64,000 nt of DNA from assembly GCF_001276715.1 (NCBI RefSeq), contig NZ_LIUQ01000020.1:1-64000 (forward strand). The letters run 5' to 3'. A program made the translations under genes and the position numbers. The notes under the pieces are model-generated. The model was not told the DNA's origin. It made no database searches and saw nothing but the letters and a program-made list of their open reading frames with translations. This document shows, in pieces, positions 9,488-40,922 of the stretch. The stretch is from Planktothricoides sp. SR001. Its GTDB lineage: Bacteria > Cyanobacteriota > Cyanobacteriia > Cyanobacteriales > Laspinemataceae. The first letter of the stretch is position 1. Each line of letters starts with the position of its first letter.

Positions 9488-9553
9488 TAAATTAGATGGG
9501 AATACTAGAATATTAATATATAGTGTTTATCGCGTCGATCATACTCTGATTGG

Positions 9554-9573
9554 ATTCCCGCATTCGCGGGAAT
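9554..9573. repeat. Dispersed palindrome (attcccgc/gcgggaat)
   Basis: ATTCCCGC and GCGGGAAT around a short spacer. The same palindrome recurs at about 10977, 20381, 20500, 36988 and 37285 in this window. Confidence 0.75.
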
Positions 9574-9614
9574 GACAATTTTTTGATATATCTCATACTA
9601 AAGAAAATTTTTAT

Positions 9615-10931: not shown

Positions 10932-10976
10932 GTTATATCAAATCCGTGTATTCGCTGATTATCTACAAAACTCTGT

Positions 10977-11144
10977 CATTCCCGCGAATGCGGGAATCCA
11001 TCTTAGTATTTCGTAGGGTGGGCAAAAGTCAACTTTTGAATTGATCGAATGAACCAAAGCAATTTTGCCCACCATTATTTCGTAGGGTGGGCAAAAATAA
11101 ATTTTTGACTTTATCGAATGAACCAAAGCAATTTTGCCCACCAT
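10977..11144. repeat. Palindrome plus 69-bp tandem duplication (gtagggtgggcaaa family)
   Basis: One cattcccgcg/cgcgggaat-type palindrome is followed by two units starting at 11012 and 11081. Each opens with cgtagggtgggcaaaa and closes with attttgcccaccat, forming inverted ends. The same end modules recur at 19850-19882 and 20335-20577. Confidence 0.8.
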
Positions 11145-20324: not shown

Positions 20325-20577
20325 TTAGCAAAATGTAGGGTGGGCAAAATCTTGCCCACCCTACGACTATTCGCCAGATGTCATTCCCGCGTTAGCGAAG
20401 CATGCGCGTCAGCGCTATATGCGGGAATCCACAAACGTTTTTGTGAGCAAAATGTAGGGTGGGCAAAATATTGCCCACCCTACGGCTATTCGCCAGATGT
20501 CATTCCCGCGAAGGCGGGAATCCACAAACGTTTTTGTGAGCATTTTTGTGAGCAAAATATTGCCCACCCTACGGCTA
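20325..20577. repeat. Tandem duplication of a composite palindromic repeat
   Basis: Two units, starting near 20331 and 20452, each hold gtagggtgggcaaaat / ttgcccaccctacg, then gctattcgccagatgtcattcccgcg...gcgggaatccacaaacg and tttttgtgagca. The loop of the second palindrome is long in unit 1 (about 28 bp) and 3 bp in unit 2. A partial third unit follows. Confidence 0.85.
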
Positions 20578-33147: not shown

Positions 33148-35946
33148 CTAATAACTAATCGTCAATTGTTCATAAACCACCTTAGCCTTAATCTCATCCA
33201 TTGCTGACCACAAATCCAGCAAATTCCGTTCTTCGGAAATGCGTTTTTTCTCATCCCCAATCCGGGGAATAGCCTTCAAAGCAACCTCGATCGCCTTCAT
33301 AAAATTATCATTAGTCACCAAATTAGTATCTTGCATAAACTTACGGACTGCTTGGATATCGTTTTCCTCCTCATAAATAGCGACGATCGCGTGGATTCCA
33401 TCCACCAAATAACGGCAAGAAAAATCTTTGGCTTCCGTGGAAAAAGCCCGTTTTTTCCATCGTTGGGTTGGAGTTAAGAGTTTACAAGTACCTCCAGAAG
33501 CACTTAGCAATTTATGAGTTTTGTCCAAGTCGGACACATTAAAACCGCCAATAGCTAAAGCTAATTGTCGCGCTTCATCATAAGGAAATTCGCGGGCTTT
33601 AAAAGCATCCCAAGCCAAAAAATACCATTGAGTTAAAGAGTCAAATCCCTGGGTATCCGTTTGGACTAATTTGCGGAAACGATAAGCTGCGATCGCTTTT
33701 CGGGCTTCCGCAAAAGCCACCTCTGGGCGAACTTCATCCCCACTGCTATTATAAATGGGATAAGACCGACTAAACACATTTAAAGCCGGACCAAAAGCAC
33801 TTAAATATAAATCGATTCCCGTAATATCATTATCCTCAAATTCCGGGGCGCGTTGTTCCACCAAATTAGCCACTTCCGGGCGCAAATCATCCCACCAAGC
33901 GGCTTCAGCGTTCGGGTTGCGTTTGCGGCAAACTAGCAACACCGTACTAGAAACAGAATTTTTCTGGGCTTGATGTAAATTTTGGGGATTTTCTGTGCTC
34001 ACAGACCAAGAAGCGGTAATTTCAAAACCCGCATCAATTAATGATTTAGTCAGCACATCCCAGGCGCCGGAATCTTTATGATTAAATTGTACGGTCATCA
34101 CCCCATCATCCCGCAAAACTCGATAATATTCGCCAAAAGCCAAGGCCATTTTTGCCTCATAATCTTGGGCGGCTAATTCATCGGCTGAAGTACCCATATC
34201 CCGAAAACGAGACGGGTTCGCGACCGCTTCTCGGTGTTTATCCGTGAGTTCTGACCAGAATAATTCGGGGAAAATATCCCCTAATGTCCGTTTCATCCAA
34301 ACATAGAAAAAATCGGAAAGATCGGCATAAGGAATTGTTCCATAATAGGGCGGGTCAGTAATAACCGCATCCACAGATTTATCGGCAATATGATAAAGGC
34401 TATCCGCCGAAGCCGCATCAATTTTTATGCTTTTGGGGTCGGTTTCTAGGATACCCGGTAAGCTGAGAGATTGAGGTTTTGTGCCGAATAAATTACATAA
34501 AGGTGTGTAGTCTTTTGCTCCTTCTTCTTGACACGCTTTCCAAAGTTCAGTTGCCCCATTAACTTCTGGATAATTCCACATTAAATTTAATGCGTGTTGT
34601 GTTGATGCTTTTTGAATACAAGCTCTAGCAGCGTTATAAATAACTAATCTACAATTCGCATCAACACATCTATCTAATACTAAAGCCAAATAAGTGCAAA
34701 TGGCCTCTACTTTTTCCGGTTCATACTCAGCCCGGATTAACTCCTTCGCTTCGTTGATAATTTCTACATAAGTCACCAGGGTTAAAAGCTGACGCGGGTT
34801 AAATATTTGAAACCATTGTTTACAATAACCAAGAATTTGCCCATGATCGTTTATAATATACTCATTAGGTATTAAGTTATTAATTTGCCATTTATAATCT
34901 TGATTTTTCAAATATTCTTGGCTTAACTTCCATCCCGCTATATCAAACTCATTAGAAAGTCTAAACTCTAAACTGCTTTTTCCTTTTTTATAAGCCACTG
35001 CATATAACTGATGTCCTAAACCGACAGATTGGGCTTGAGACTTAATCACTTCATCCTCAATAATATTGCCACAAGTAGGACATCTACCCACCCCACGACT
35101 AACGGTAATGTAATCATCAGGATTGTATTCACCATCATCGGTTTTAATCGTTGTTCCTTTCCCTTTTTTCCCCTTAATTAACTCAAAATCAACCCGCTTT
35201 TCTGTCAGATTGGGAATTGGTTTCACCGCGTACCAATCACTCGTAACTTTTCTAGCTTGTCCTTTTCCAGCATAGTTACTTGTTTTACTTAACCACCAAT
35301 TTGGACTTAAGGGAACCACAGACTGACAACTAGGACAAACTACCGTATGTGCCCATAAATAATTTTGCACAACTTCCTCACTTTCCGGGGTTGAAGGGAA
35401 AAAATCCGCTAATCTTTTCTCCGCTTCATCCCCGACCCACTTCACCCAACGGTCAATATCCACTTGTAAATCGGGGCCAAATTTTACCGGATATTCCATT
35501 GCAGCTTTCATAGTCACAACTGCCACCGGATTCAAATCCGAAGCTAACACATTTAACCCATATCTAGCCGCTTCAAAAGGAATACTCCCCCCACCAGCAA
35601 AAGCATCTAAAACTGTAGGGGTTCGGTTGCCCCAAACTCTCTCACAATAATCATGGACTTTCCCTACTCGAAAATATCCTGGAGGCACTTTATAAAGTCG
35701 CAAATTAGCATCAGGTTTTAACCCCTCCAATTCTGGATGTAATCCCAGTAAATATTCAAACTCATCTAATGAAATATCCTCTGGCAACAGAGAAGCCAAA
35801 ACCGAAGCGCGAGAGAAAGATAACGGCTTCCGAGAATACCAGCGGTGTAGTCCTTTAAATGGATTGCCCCCATGTTCATAAGCCACCTGTTGATTTAACA
35901 GTTTCACTGGCATAATTCTCTCGATCAATAATCTATCTTTGTTCAT
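33148..35946 (-). CDS. DUF1156 DNA adenine/cytosine-N4 methyltransferase
   Basis: A 932-aa protein. The N-terminal DUF1156 pattern NPFKGLHRWYSRKPLSFSRA lies at 28-47. SAM-binding motif I is FAGGGS (116-121), and catalytic motif IV is DPPYYG (about 530-535). The order motif I, long target region, motif IV is that of alpha-class amino-methyltransferases (N6-adenine or N4-cytosine). Between them lie paired Cys (CPSC near 208, CPTC near 290) suggesting a zinc ribbon. Expected role: mark self DNA for the cassette. The 5' and 3' flanks are both tandem repeats, starting at the start codon and within a few bases of the stop. Confidence 0.9.
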   Translation of the reverse strand: MNKDRLLIERIMPVKLLNQQVAYEHGGNPFKGLHRWYSRKPLSFSRASVLASLLPEDISLDEFEYLLGLHPELEGLKPDANLRLYKVPPGYFRVGKVHDYCERVWGNRTPTVLDAFAGGGSIPFEAARYGLNVLASDLNPVAVVTMKAAMEYPVKFGPDLQVDIDRWVKWVGDEAEKRLADFFPSTPESEEVVQNYLWAHTVVCPSCQSVVPLSPNWWLSKTSNYAGKGQARKVTSDWYAVKPIPNLTEKRVDFELIKGKKGKGTTIKTDDGEYNPDDYITVSRGVGRCPTCGNIIEDEVIKSQAQSVGLGHQLYAVAYKKGKSSLEFRLSNEFDIAGWKLSQEYLKNQDYKWQINNLIPNEYIINDHGQILGYCKQWFQIFNPRQLLTLVTYVEIINEAKELIRAEYEPEKVEAICTYLALVLDRCVDANCRLVIYNAARACIQKASTQHALNLMWNYPEVNGATELWKACQEEGAKDYTPLCNLFGTKPQSLSLPGILETDPKSIKIDAASADSLYHIADKSVDAVITDPPYYGTIPYADLSDFFYVWMKRTLGDIFPELFWSELTDKHREAVANPSRFRDMGTSADELAAQDYEAKMALAFGEYYRVLRDDGVMTVQFNHKDSGAWDVLTKSLIDAGFEITASWSVSTENPQNLHQAQKNSVSSTVLLVCRKRNPNAEAAWWDDLRPEVANLVEQRAPEFEDNDITGIDLYLSAFGPALNVFSRSYPIYNSSGDEVRPEVAFAEARKAIAAYRFRKLVQTDTQGFDSLTQWYFLAWDAFKAREFPYDEARQLALAIGGFNVSDLDKTHKLLSASGGTCKLLTPTQRWKKRAFSTEAKDFSCRYLVDGIHAIVAIYEEENDIQAVRKFMQDTNLVTNDNFMKAIEVALKAIPRIGDEKKRISEERNLLDLWSAMDEIKAKVVYEQLTISY

Positions 35947-36267
35947 GGTTGTTTGTTGGTTGTTGGTTGTTGTTTGTTGGTTGGGGTGTAGGGTGTAGGG
36001 TGTAGCCCTTCGGCAGGCTCAGGGTAAGAGGTGTAGGGTGTAGGGGGGAGAGGGTTTAGGGTGTAGCCCTTCGGCAGGCTCAGGGTAAGAGGTGTAGGGT
36101 GTGGGGAAGAGTGAAGAGTGAATAGTGATATTTATGCATAACTTTTAACTTGTACGGGCGAATGGCCATTCGCCCCTACGAATGCATCACTTTCTTCCCC
36201 TACACCCTACACCCTACACCCTACACCCTCCCTTCCCCCTACACCCTACACCCTACACCCTACACCC
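35947..36267. repeat. Repeat-filled junction in the defence cassette
   Basis: Contains ttgtttg/ttggttg heptamers, gtgtagg heptamers, two copies of tagcccttcggcaggctcag, gaatagt, the GGGCGAATGGCCATTCGCCC palindrome (about 36158-36177) and ccctaca heptamers (about 36200-36265). The 141-aa gene stops at the far edge. Confidence 0.93.
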
Positions 36268-36693
36268 CTAACTTAATAATACCCGAATCGCCTTTAATGC
36301 CGAATTGCGTTTACCATGATTAATCTTGCCAAACCAATAATGGGCTTCTTCATCACTCATAGCCATAATTCCCGTGGTAATTTCCTGAATTCTCTCACTT
36401 TTTGACAATGGCTGCAAGGCTTGGCATAATATCGCCAATCTGACCCCGGAATCCTCTGATAAACTATAAGGGGCTTGCCGTCGTTTCGACAAAGTTTTCG
36501 GATCGTAACTATTGGCTTTTAAAGCCGCATAAATGCTTTGGCGGGCTAACAATAATTTTTCTCCTTTTAATTGGCCAATCCGCTTTGCTGCTGGTCGTTT
36601 TTTCTGTCCGGCTTGTTTGTAAGCACATTGATAAAGTTCCAGGGAAAAATTGTTATCTTTTAGGGGAATAACTCTTAATTGGAATTCTTGCAT
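36268..36693 (-). CDS. 141-aa unknown component of the cassette
   Basis: A soluble, basic protein (Lys/Arg-rich 30-75: KQAGQKKRPAAKRIGQLKGEK) with a helical C-terminal half (RLAILCQALQPLSKSERIQEITTGI). No domain recognised. Its fixed place between the DUF499 and DUF1156 genes, on the same strand, argues for a functional part of the cassette. As I recall, a DUF3780 protein occupies a comparable slot in related cassettes, but I cannot show homology. The basic N-terminal half suggests DNA contact (inference). Confidence 0.75.
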   Translation of the reverse strand: MQEFQLRVIPLKDNNFSLELYQCAYKQAGQKKRPAAKRIGQLKGEKLLLARQSIYAALKANSYDPKTLSKRRQAPYSLSEDSGVRLAILCQALQPLSKSERIQEITTGIMAMSDEEAHYWFGKINHGKRNSALKAIRVLLS

Positions 36694-36942
36694 ATTTTAT
36701 CATCAATAGGACTTACAAATTATATATAGGATATATAGGGGCAAACACCGCCTGCAAACACCGCCTGCAAACACCGCCGGGGGTTAAAACGATGGCTGTC
36801 TCATAGCACAAGTCGGTTAAAACCGACTGAAATTTATATTTTGAAATCATATAATTTTAGGGAATTTATTCCCCGGCGGGCGGATATCGGGCGGATTAAT
36901 TTTCAAATCATATAATTAACCATATAATTTTAGTCGGTTTTA

Positions 36943-37067
36943 AGTAGGTGAACATAATTAATTGCACTTTTCGTTTTCCGCCAATAGGCTTTGGATTCCC
37001 GCCTTCGCGGGAATGACAGCCTTTCTTCTCGTGGGGTCTGTAGTGCATTTATTTCTGCCCACCTACT
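36943..37067. mobile_element. 125-bp MITE with TA target duplication, copy 1
   Basis: Begins AGTAGGTG and ends CACCTACT; the outer 25 bp match as inverted repeats at about 20 positions. TA flanks it on both sides. The empty site survives in the third unit near 37513 (gtcggttttaaccgac). It holds one attcccgcc/cgcgggaat palindrome and no gene. Confidence 0.85.
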
Positions 37068-37234
37068 TAACCGACTTTCCCTATGAGACGGGGAATTTAT
37101 TCCCCGGCGGGCGGATATCTGAAATTTATATTTTGAAATCATATAATTTTAGGGAATTTATTCCCCGGCGGGCGGATATCGGGCGGATTAATTTTCACAT
37201 CATATAATTAACCATATAATTTTAGTCGGTTTTA

Positions 37235-37359
37235 AGTAGGTGAACATAATTAATTGCACTTTTCGTTTTCCGCCAATAGGCTTTGGATTCCCGCCTTCGC
37301 GGGAATGACAGCCTTTCTTCTCGTGGGGTCTGTAGTGCATTTATTTCTGCCCACCTACT
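37235..37359. mobile_element. 125-bp MITE with TA target duplication, copy 2
   Basis: Same element and same flanks as the copy at 36943-37067, arising with the 292-bp duplication rather than by a separate insertion. Confidence 0.85.
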
Positions 37360-37589
37360 TAACCGACTTTCCCTATGAGACGGGGAATTTATTCCCCGGC
37401 GGATATCTGAAATTTATATTTTGAAATCATATAATTTTAGGGAATTTATTCCCCGGCGGGCGGATATCGGGCGGATTAATTTTCAAATCATATAATTAAC
37501 CATATAATTTTAGTCGGTTTTAACCGACTTTCGCCATGAGACGGGGAATTTATTCCCCGGCGGATCTCATGCGAAAGCCCCTACAAATA

Positions 37590-40500
37590 TTACGAATACA
37601 ACACCTGTGCCCTTAAATGAATCCGTTCCACGGGATTACGGTTAAGGGTTTGTTTAATTTGTTCCAATTCTGGCCCCGTAGGTGATATGGATGGGCTGAA
37701 TTCCAGGGCGACTTTTAAGGATACGTTGCCTTGTTCCGACTTGACTAACCAATTACTCAAACTTGAGAAAAGACTCTGAAATCCACGGGCATCCCCTTGA
37801 TATTCCAAGCGAATAAATTCTGCCCCAGTTTGAATAGTCACGTCTTGATCGATTTTTGGACTAAAACGCTGGAGTAAGGCGATCGCTGTTCCCAGTTTCC
37901 GATAGTCCATCAAGTCGCTGACGGTCATTTCTATAGCTGCGATCGCCTTAACCCGATGGTCCTGAAAGCGATCGCCCAACTGATTGAAAACCGAATTAAG
38001 ACTACCATCAACTTCCACCGTAGGGGGCTGACTATCCCAAATATTCGGCTGATTCGCATCTATATTATATGTACCAGAATTAGTCGAAGAATTAGTCGGA
38101 CGATAAATAGCAGAAACTTCCCGCAGGGAACCCACTCCCGGCCCCGCATTTACCGGGTCAACCGTAACTTCCCTTGTCGCAGTTTCTCCGTTGCCATAGT
38201 CTGCCACTATTTTAAATAGAGTAGAACTGCTAATTTCCGTTTCATATTCGTCCTTGGGTTTGAACTCGGTGGAAATCGCTATTTCATTTTTAAATAAGGT
38301 GACTTTTAGGGCCGCGTCAGCTTTCCACCGGACATAAACGGGTTTTTCCCCAGAAGAACTAGACATTAACTGATAAGTCAATTCTAAAGTTCTCGGTTTA
38401 GGGGGTTCCAATATTCCCCGACGATAGAGAACAAAGCGATCGCTAAATTCCAAAGCATCTGGCAAAACCAACGGCTGATTCTGAGTTTTAATATAAAAGC
38501 GTTCGGGCTTATCAGAAACCTTCAAATCCCAATGTCCCTCAGTCAAACCTTTCTGGATCGTCTCCCGTAACATCAAAACTTCTTTTTCTAACAGCATATT
38601 CAGGGATAAATCCTTAGCAAAAGCATTGCAAAGTTCTTTAGTAGTCCAAGAATCAATCCCCGCAGGCCAAACTTTTTGCAAAATATAAGCCGGGGCAAAA
38701 GGTTTCGCATCGTCTGGGCGAATTTTATCACAATCTTTTAACGCCTTAAGAATCACATCCTGCTGATGGTTTTTGCCTTTAACCATACTAGCATCTTGGG
38801 CGCTAAGAGTATAGTGCATCAAACCTTTCGGGGCTTTTACCAGGTCATTTGCTGGATAAAATAAATGACGATAAGCATTAGTCAAAGATACCCGCACATC
38901 TAAATCTTTTTGCCCTTCTCGTTCTTTCAATTGTTGCTGCTGCCGGTCTGACAAATCATCTAAACGATTAGGACTACGCAGAATATTTCTAATCGCTTGA
39001 TATTCTCTAGCATTCTCGATCGCCTGTTGTAAAGCGGGCTTATTTGCCAATAAAAATAACAAGCGATTGCGGAAAATTCTAAACTTACCAGAATCCCCGG
39101 TTTGATGAAAAATGCGATCGACTAACTCCGGTACAGGATCCGTAGGACTATCCACGGTGACATCATCAAAATCCATCACACATAAAGCAATATCATCAGG
39201 GCGATCGTCCACGTCCGAGGGACTGTCTATCTGATCCGAAATCAGAGTAAAAAATCGCTTCGCAAAAATAGTATCCCGACGCCTTCTTAATTCTTCCTTA
39301 GCATCAGTTCGCTTAACTTGTTCTTTCTCCTCAGAAATAATCTTATTTAAAGAAGGTTCTTCCTTAAACCGGGCAAGGGAAGTAATTGGATCGTAATCCA
39401 AATACCAAGCTTCCTTAACCAACTTTTGTAGAATATCATCTACCACCCCCATTTTAACATTTGGAGTCAGCAAAGACAAACTTAATTCTGCTTCCCGAAT
39501 CCCCGAAGAAATGCCTTGAGTTAAAGAATGCAAAAAAATCGTTCTTGCCACCCAAGTAGAAAAAGGAGGTTTACCGGCAACAGTCCATTCCTCATCTTGA
39601 ACTTGGGCATAAGCTTTTCGCCCATCTAAATTATAAATATCCGCCTGAATTGGATTTCGCATAAACGGACGTTGTAACCGAGAAGTCAACTCATTAGTCA
39701 CCTGACTATTCACCCCAACGGGAATATGATGGGAATGAATAATCGGTATCCAAGCTGACAGCAACCCGGTCATTTCTGCCCCTGGACTTTCCTGATTTTT
39801 TTGCCAAAGATGCTGCACCACCAAAGCAAATAAACGCAACGCTCCTCGCGTCCGTTGAAACTCAGGAATCGCGGCAATTTTTTGGGTTAACAGCTTAAAC
39901 AGTTCCGGGTGAAAAGGATAAGATTGTGCGATCGCCTCAGCATAAGAAGCATCCTTACAAGCATCCGGTAAATCAACGCGAGTCAAGCGATAAAGATCCA
40001 CATATTCTGCCGCTGCTGCCTTAGCTGCCTCATCACTTACCCGTTCAAAAATGCGCTGTTTAACAATATTATAAATCTCGATATCCGTCGATGGACTAAT
40101 CACCCGTTCCTGACGGGAAGAAGCCTGAATCAACTCATTCAGTTCATCATTCAAATAGGCAGTTTCTGCCGCAAAAGTATCAGACTTTGAAGCCAGAGAA
40201 TAAACCAAAACCAAACAGTCACAAGCTGCCGCTAAATCCATCAAAGAAAACAGAAAAGCTACCACTTGTGCTGCCAAATCGCTATTCCCAATTAGTTTAG
40301 CTTTAGCTGATCGCAAATAGCGAGCAATTTCGTCTATAATAATAACAGTAGATTGCCCATTAATCAACCGTTCTAAAATAGAAGTTCCCGGACTAATCCC
40401 GCTGGTATCGGAACCTTTGAGCAATTCATAACCGGCCACACCGCCAATTTGGTAAGCAATTTCTCCCCAAATAGTATAAGTAGTCAGGCCAATATCTTGA

Positions 40501-40922
40501 TAATAAATTCCATTTTGTGGATCTAAATCTCGGCCATCAATTGCTGCTACTTTTACCGCCGATTCTGGGATTAAATTCAAATCCACAAAACGGTCTAAAC
40601 CTTGAATTTTTCTCCCTTGTTTACAAATATGCCAAAGGGCAATCTGGTCGTGAGTTTTACCGCCACCAAAACTGGTTTCTAAGCGAATCACCGGAGAACC
40701 AGCCCCTTGTTGAGTCAGACGGCTAAAAACTTCTTGAATCAGGGTTTTAATCCCATCAGTGGGAAAAGTGTTCGCGAAAAAAACATGAGAATCCTGATAA
40801 ACTTGCGGGGCTTTTCCTTCCACCACTGGCCGAATTTTGGCGGCAAATATTTCCTCTTTCAACGAGCCGGATAGAATTTCTTTTCGAGGAATACAGGTAT
40901 CAAGAATTGAGGATAAAGGCAT
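37590..40922 (-). CDS. DUF499 family P-loop ATPase of the cassette
   Basis: A 1110-aa protein and first gene of the cassette. The N-terminal region matches DUF499: Walker A GGGKTH (86-91) preceded by LETSF, Walker B ending in Asp197-Glu198 (IIIDEIARYL). The C-terminal third (about 820-1110) is beta-rich and may bind a partner. DUF499 ATPases are known next to DUF1156 methyltransferases and helicases in predicted anti-phage loci; their role is unknown. Upstream (40923-41083) is a short AT-rich spacer where the cassette promoter should lie. Downstream is the large repeat block. Confidence 0.9.
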   Translation of the reverse strand: MPLSSILDTCIPRKEILSGSLKEEIFAAKIRPVVEGKAPQVYQDSHVFFANTFPTDGIKTLIQEVFSRLTQQGAGSPVIRLETSFGGGKTHDQIALWHICKQGRKIQGLDRFVDLNLIPESAVKVAAIDGRDLDPQNGIYYQDIGLTTYTIWGEIAYQIGGVAGYELLKGSDTSGISPGTSILERLINGQSTVIIIDEIARYLRSAKAKLIGNSDLAAQVVAFLFSLMDLAAACDCLVLVYSLASKSDTFAAETAYLNDELNELIQASSRQERVISPSTDIEIYNIVKQRIFERVSDEAAKAAAAEYVDLYRLTRVDLPDACKDASYAEAIAQSYPFHPELFKLLTQKIAAIPEFQRTRGALRLFALVVQHLWQKNQESPGAEMTGLLSAWIPIIHSHHIPVGVNSQVTNELTSRLQRPFMRNPIQADIYNLDGRKAYAQVQDEEWTVAGKPPFSTWVARTIFLHSLTQGISSGIREAELSLSLLTPNVKMGVVDDILQKLVKEAWYLDYDPITSLARFKEEPSLNKIISEEKEQVKRTDAKEELRRRRDTIFAKRFFTLISDQIDSPSDVDDRPDDIALCVMDFDDVTVDSPTDPVPELVDRIFHQTGDSGKFRIFRNRLLFLLANKPALQQAIENAREYQAIRNILRSPNRLDDLSDRQQQQLKEREGQKDLDVRVSLTNAYRHLFYPANDLVKAPKGLMHYTLSAQDASMVKGKNHQQDVILKALKDCDKIRPDDAKPFAPAYILQKVWPAGIDSWTTKELCNAFAKDLSLNMLLEKEVLMLRETIQKGLTEGHWDLKVSDKPERFYIKTQNQPLVLPDALEFSDRFVLYRRGILEPPKPRTLELTYQLMSSSSGEKPVYVRWKADAALKVTLFKNEIAISTEFKPKDEYETEISSSTLFKIVADYGNGETATREVTVDPVNAGPGVGSLREVSAIYRPTNSSTNSGTYNIDANQPNIWDSQPPTVEVDGSLNSVFNQLGDRFQDHRVKAIAAIEMTVSDLMDYRKLGTAIALLQRFSPKIDQDVTIQTGAEFIRLEYQGDARGFQSLFSSLSNWLVKSEQGNVSLKVALEFSPSISPTGPELEQIKQTLNRNPVERIHLRAQVLYS

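Follow-up and report, generated by a model that had tools for sequence, protein, structure and literature searches.

The stretch of DNA analysed here, 64,000 nucleotides in length (the window) and from the filamentous cyanobacterium Planktothricoides sp. SR001, holds in an intergenic gap two copies of a short element belonging to the miniature inverted-repeat transposable elements (MITEs). The copies, of 125 bp each, are mutually identical, lie 292 bp apart and have the termini AGTAGGTG...CACCTACT (Table 1). Each is bordered by TA on both sides and sits between gtcggtttTA and TAaccgac, that is, within gtcggttttaaccgac. A direct repeat of 284 nt at 100% identity and with a spacing of 292 covers both filled copies, and a third unit, which starts 288 bp after the second, holds AGTCGGTTTTAACCGACT uninterrupted. 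The outer arms of the element are inverted over 29 nt at 83%, TTA/TAA included, and inside the element the inverted-repeat ends match at 19 of 24 bases. The initial annotation had described two TA-flanked elements of 125 bp, which proved exact to the base, and its further claims of a 292-bp duplication, of an empty site kept by a third unit near 37511 and of an inversion of about 20 of the outer 25 bp are borne out by these values.

A degenerate pattern of the ends has five matches in the window where 0.14 would be expected, four of the five being the ends of these two MITEs, with no mismatches; since the element has in addition 44 matches in its own genome, it is not a product of chance. Two predicted open reading frames of 70 and 81 amino acids overlap the first copy. 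A role of the central hairpin as a transcription terminator was considered and rejected, as both terminator-like sites lie outside the MITE and two were found where 1.4 would be expected. In addition, the stretch of the hairpin taken by itself is no more stable than its shuffled versions (z of -0.93), although the whole element folds better than shuffled sequences (z of -5.9 and -6.6).

Table 1. Positions in the window of the MITE copies, their parts and the tandem units that carry them
Feature	Positions	Strand	Evidence and remarks
MITE copy 1, 125 bp	36943..37067	+	sequence read and family search
MITE copy 2, identical to copy 1	37235..37359	+	sequence read and family search
Left terminal inverted repeat, 24 nt, copy 1	36943..36966	+	family pattern, 0 mismatches; in copy 2, 37235-37258
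Right terminal inverted repeat, copy 1	37044..37067	-	family pattern; in copy 2, 37336-37359
Left TA target duplication, copy 1	36941..36942	.	sequence, TA family-wide; in copy 2, 37233-37234
Right TA target duplication, copy 1	37068..37069	.	sequence, TA family-wide; in copy 2, 37360-37361
Central hairpin GGATTCCCGCCTTCGCGGGAATGAC, copy 1	36993..37017	+	in copy 2, 37285-37309; also a separate dispersed repeat
Tandem unit 1, filled, 292 bp	36827..37118	.	repeat comparison and unit markers
Tandem unit 2, filled	37119..37406	.	288 bp up to the start of unit 3; right end 4 bp shorter
Tandem unit 3, empty	37407..37568	.	repeat comparison and unit markers
Unbroken target palindrome AGTCGGTTTTAACCGACT, unit 3	37512..37529	.	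sequence read
Related palindrome AGTCGGTTAAAACCGACT, left array border	36811..36828	.	sequence and repeat comparison

The array is lodged between genes of a defence-like cluster on the minus strand (window 33148-40922), which encode a DUF1156 methyltransferase (best PADLOC model HmaB), a DUF7680 protein and a DUF499 ATPase (best PADLOC model HmaC).

Family size and target sites

Three genomes of the genus were compared, namely that of the strain itself (G000; 7,066,705 bases in 165 contigs), a genome of the same species in one contig (G001) and a metagenome bin of a sister species (G002). The search of G000, in which 40 of 197 first-look candidates were scored, yielded at least 44 matches: 40 are long (109-125 bp), and the other four measure 27-36 bp. 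A coherent alignment was obtained for 38 of the 40 long copies (L039 and L043 were excluded), and the long copies other than the window pair differ by 2-15%. Family ends counted with a degenerate 24-nt pattern (at most three mismatches) number 162, 184 and 470 in G000, G001 and G002, against 6, 5 and 9 for the reversed pattern used as a control, so that about 80, 90 and 230 elements are estimated for the three genomes; a stricter pattern gave 127, 148 and 397 ends. Because the 11 genomes of the same taxonomic family searched outside the genus hold only 0-10 ends each by the stricter pattern, the amplification is, within that family, limited to this genus. Across the order as a whole, 279 of 388 genomes have related ends, with a maximum of 184 in one of them (G171). 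Six loci from other families of the order (L146, L147, L149, L153, L156 and L160) have MITE-like ends paired about 80-140 bp apart, an arrangement that probably marks related MITE families. Reading 80 loci of G002 yielded 92 paired elements of 116-243 bp, none longer than 243 bp within 1.6 kb, and eight left ends with no right partner within that same distance. Plasmids and phages searched by blastn gave no match to the MITE, and viral contigs gave none to one exact 26-nt end pattern.

Both sides are bordered by TA in 36 of the 38 distinct copies of G000 (the two window copies being counted once and the truncated L039 dropped) and in 88 of the 92 elements of G002. Empty sites were sought in G001 and G002 with the joined 60-bp flanks of 24 copies chosen for sequence complexity, 40 candidates being scored per genome. 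Compared with G002, six of the 24 insertions have an empty site and four an occupied one, the flank of one is widely repeated, and for 13 no match spans the site; compared with G001, 22 are occupied, their flanks matching apart, one is empty (L040) and one is without a match (L019). A base-by-base reading of the seven empty sites showed the flanks joined with a single copy of the target. The alignment of L040 to G001 continues on both sides (at 98.6% on one side and at 81-91% on the other, which is repeat-rich), and L040 is therefore an insertion difference within one species. Flanks and empty sites together display the duplicated TA target of the IS630 group. The family, whose members measure 116-348 bp, combines the properties of a MITE, being short and non-coding, with terminal inverted repeats, dispersed copies with target duplication, and empty sites (a length of 70-300 bp is given for MITEs in an extract of PMC3733652). 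Further same-ended elements, which the initial annotation had proposed to look for in the genome, thus exist in at least 40 long copies, and their TA flanks leave its assignment intact.

IS630-type ends and the putative source

Profile PF13358, which marks IS630-type transposases, has 23 matches in G000, 26 in G001 and one in G002, and the search for end similarity around these loci returned weak matches only (7-8 mismatches in 26). De novo detection of ends, which covered the 23 loci of G000 and three of the 27 in G001 and G002, revealed two imperfect relatives in G000. One, on contig C23 and of clade 2 (see below), is an IS630 element of 1,184 bp with the ends AGTAGGTAGGT..., of which only the outer 7 bp are common to the MITE; the other, on contig C102, is a decayed clade-1 remnant of 971 bp (AGTGCATCTGTAAAATTAATTGCA) that has the inner part in common. 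On C23 (L050, 1268-2455) an IS630 transposase lies in two overlapping frames, the same arrangement occurring in G001 (L127), and this layout of frames perhaps points to programmed frameshifting. A MITE usually, though not necessarily, has a partner transposase in its own genome that is flanked by matching ends; none was found in these searches. The longer members were also checked as possible decayed autonomous copies, and in the 15 inspected no transposase remnant was seen by eye, no sequence search having been made with them.

Ends of the MITE type are carried by two transposase clades from other families of the same order, and the queries of both contain PF13358 (DDE_3). Clade 1 (query from G191) comprises elements of 1,055-1,179 bp with TA-flanked ends AGTA..TAGACAAAATTAATT[A/G]CA at 19 of 30 loci, these being identical to the nearer MITE end at 15-21 of 24 positions; the other 11 loci have unrelated ends or none. 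Open transposase frames of 332-338 amino acids, uninterrupted by stops, occur in this clade, for instance in G131, G220 and G171. In clade 2 (query from G115, its gene frameshifted), 18 of 30 loci have ends of the AGTAG type; at two of these loci the ends are out of register by a few bases, and at the others 14-19 of 24 positions are identical. The two ends of the query element itself have 21 and 17 identities in 24. For 25 ends picked from those reported (15 of clade 1 and 10 of clade 2) the identity to the MITE was 16-21 of 24; it was 6-10 of 24 for six other IS630-type ends of G000, and when the MITE ends were shuffled 20,000 times, no shuffled version matched any of the 25 ends at more than 18 positions. 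Judged by its target and its ends, the element is thus IS630-related, and an IS630-type transposase acting in trans may have mobilised it. The IS630/Tc1-mariner affinity proposed in the initial annotation agrees with the TA flanks, the empty sites and the likeness of the ends to the two clades, and of the transposase with the same ends, which it had also called for, examples with the same kind of ends exist elsewhere in the order, none having turned up in G000, G001 or G002. As no source insertion sequence (IS) with matching ends was found in these three genomes, the family is probably an orphan MITE. In G002, neither clade gave a match at the limits used (six of ten candidates were scored in the clade-1 search), and the sole PF13358 match there contains a stop.

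History of the tandem array

At the same place in G001, in surroundings about 99% identical, three filled units are followed by an empty one. The unit markers equate units 1-3 of G000 with units 2-4 of G001, and both arrays end in an empty unit. Since G001 has three filled units beside the empty one, the filled unit was copied after the insertion; either its number has changed inside this species, or copies were merged when G000 was assembled. For an empty unit to stand beside a filled one, the unit would have to have been duplicated earlier, or a filled chromosome would have undergone unequal exchange with a chromosome copy in which the site was empty. Polyploidy, with several chromosome copies per cell, is known from cyanobacteria. 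The order of events given in the initial annotation, insertion and then duplication, accordingly holds for the filled units and describes only the last step of the history, an earlier duplication or exchange being needed for the empty one.

Taking all these results together, the best explanation of the locus is a non-autonomous MITE of the IS630 group that inserted at a TA and was later copied with its unit, to which we give a probability of roughly 0.93. The unit would first have been present at least twice in tandem, or a filled chromosome would later have exchanged with an empty copy. A transposase acting in trans, of IS630 type and either lost or foreign, would have recognised the imperfect 24-bp ends, and the MITE would have entered at the TA in the middle of the palindrome within the short tandem repeat, with the TA duplication that flanks and empty sites display. 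The filled 292-bp unit may then have been multiplied by unequal recombination, two filled units standing in G000 and three in G001. Several observations weigh against this explanation. The two exceptions among the 38 copies of G000 have the flanks AT/TA and AA/AA, and the TA is altered by one base in two of the seven empty sites (L027 and L032, both compared with G002). The flank of the empty site L041 (G002) occurs several times in these genomes, and this site may accordingly be an unfilled paralogue. In no case is a PF13358 locus of the three genomes bordered by ends that differ from those of the MITE at six or fewer of 26 positions, and multi-copy ISs may have been lost from G002 because it is a metagenome bin. 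Finally, the difference between two and three filled units could stem from a collapse in the assembly of G000 with its 165 contigs.

An improbable alternative is that all units were once filled and that the last lost its MITE, either excised precisely or deleted between the two TA copies. Apart from the MITE, the empty unit indeed hardly differs from the filled ones (0-1 mismatches in the 104-bp A block), but G001 has an empty unit in the same terminal place, and the empty unit has markers of its own to the right of the site (TTTCGCC). A one-off precise deletion, which the initial annotation had set against its own reading, is unlikely because the empty last unit recurs in a second genome beside three filled ones. 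It is very improbable that the element is an extragenic repeat akin to repetitive extragenic palindromes or bacterial interspersed mosaic elements (REP/BIME), spread by recombination without a transposase: the MITE does contain a REP-like hairpin that also stands alone, and the search of the genus for a partner IS with such ends found none, but the sharp ends, the duplicated TA and the clean empty sites, which lie in unrelated places, are hallmarks of insertion, and IS630 termini match those of the element. That two units received the MITE independently at the same TA, as a preferred target and the use of the same site in each unit might suggest, is effectively refuted because the perfect 284-nt repeat includes the flanks as well as two MITEs that are 100% identical, in a family whose other long copies diverge as described.

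The host palindrome AGTCGGTTTTAACCGACT with ...GAGACGGGGAATTTATTCCCC (window 36811-36828 and 37512-37568) is itself dispersed as a repeat through several genomes of the family. Stretches of about 50-60 bp that surround the palindrome account for most of the 62 matches in G000 and 78 in G001, and eight genomes from another genus of the family have 4-52 matches each. The same intergenic gap in G002 has no such array and holds other repeats instead; at this locus (L098, the counterpart of window 36700-37590) the gap is occupied by unrelated repeats, and it is perhaps a hot spot for short repeats.

Variable centre and known systems

The arms of the MITE are conserved and its middle is variable. 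Most members have a central hairpin GGATTCCCG-tip-CGGGAATGAC, the second half of which is replaced by arrays of 7 bp (AGAATAG) and 16 bp in the longer members (175-348 bp; L099-L104, L108 and L114 in G000, L117 in G001). The 25-nt form of the hairpin, with at most two mismatches, has 156 matches in G000 and 423 in G002, those inside and outside MITEs combined, and none in the searched genomes of two other genera of the family. Outside the MITEs, the window has solo short-tip hairpins at 9552-9576, 10975-10999 and 20499-20523 and one long-tip solo copy. The Neisseria dRS3 repeat, ATTCCC(N8)GGGAAT, is an inverted repeat that resembles this hairpin in its motif, in a different phylum.

Seven sites are occupied in both G000 and G002; the elements are identical at three of them and differ in the tip at four, where G000 has a short tip throughout and G002 an identical tip of 32 nt each time. 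The pairs L019/L241, L021/L243 and L033/L276 are clear, with arms nearly unchanged, and L029/L301 has larger differences beyond the tip and weaker flanks, possibly representing a different site. Outside the tip, two of the four pairs differ by one base or one 1-bp gap and one by a short block. Of the MITE-borne hairpins, 33 of 88 have a long tip in the G002 loci and 2 of 49 in those of G000; of the solo hairpins, 8 of 57 (G002 loci), 0 of 5 (G000 loci) and 1 of 4 (window) have one. In the G002 loci the long-tip core comes after GGATTCCCG in all 40 places. The tip differences are most simply explained by short-tract gene conversion between copies, and a loss of the long tip in the line of G000 is possible. 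More tentatively, and with the odds somewhat against it, the hairpin ATTCCCG-tip-CGGGAAT might be a second repeat system hosted by the MITE, with dynamics of its own, in which MITE-borne and solo hairpins all over the genome swap tips in place and the rest of the element hardly changes. Copies at the same site in two species, with little but the tip changed, offer a handle on the remodelling of short extragenic hairpins.

We conclude that this is a new MITE family of an already known kind of mobile DNA; it is not named in the titles or abstract openings of the literature searched, which does not in itself prove it unpublished. The locus is a textbook case in which insertion, bare target site and later copying are legible at one place and are confirmed in a second genome, and the family is of the IS630 type with an estimated 200 copies at least in a genome bin (G002) where no matching transposase was found.

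Nezha (Zhou, Tran and Xu 2008, cited in PMC10969869, PMC3733652 and PMC4596501), a cyanobacterial MITE termed active in the title of its report, is like the present family short and non-coding, a likeness drawn from that title and not from ends or target; for the present family no matching IS was found in the genus, and its central hairpin is variable. ISY100 of Synechocystis, of the IS630/Tc1/mariner group, has 24-bp imperfect terminal inverted repeats and a TA target with TA duplication (PMC2170065). It has such ends and the TA duplication in common with our MITE by description, not by end sequence, and is autonomous whereas the MITE is not. BrickBuilt of Porphyromonas gingivalis is a MITE with an internal tandem array of a 23-nt repeat (PMC4596501), to which the 7-bp and 16-bp arrays of some present members are comparable, but host and repeat differ and most members read have a hairpin instead. 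Anabaena sp. 90 has 147 complete or partial MITE copies; the MITEs compared here, short ones of 77-541 bp without evident similarity to IS ends of the same genome, are termed type II (PMC3542288). The present family resembles them in being short and without matching IS ends in its own genome, but it differs in that similar ends occur on IS630 elements of related genomes, and therefore the type of source from which the MITE derives can be named.
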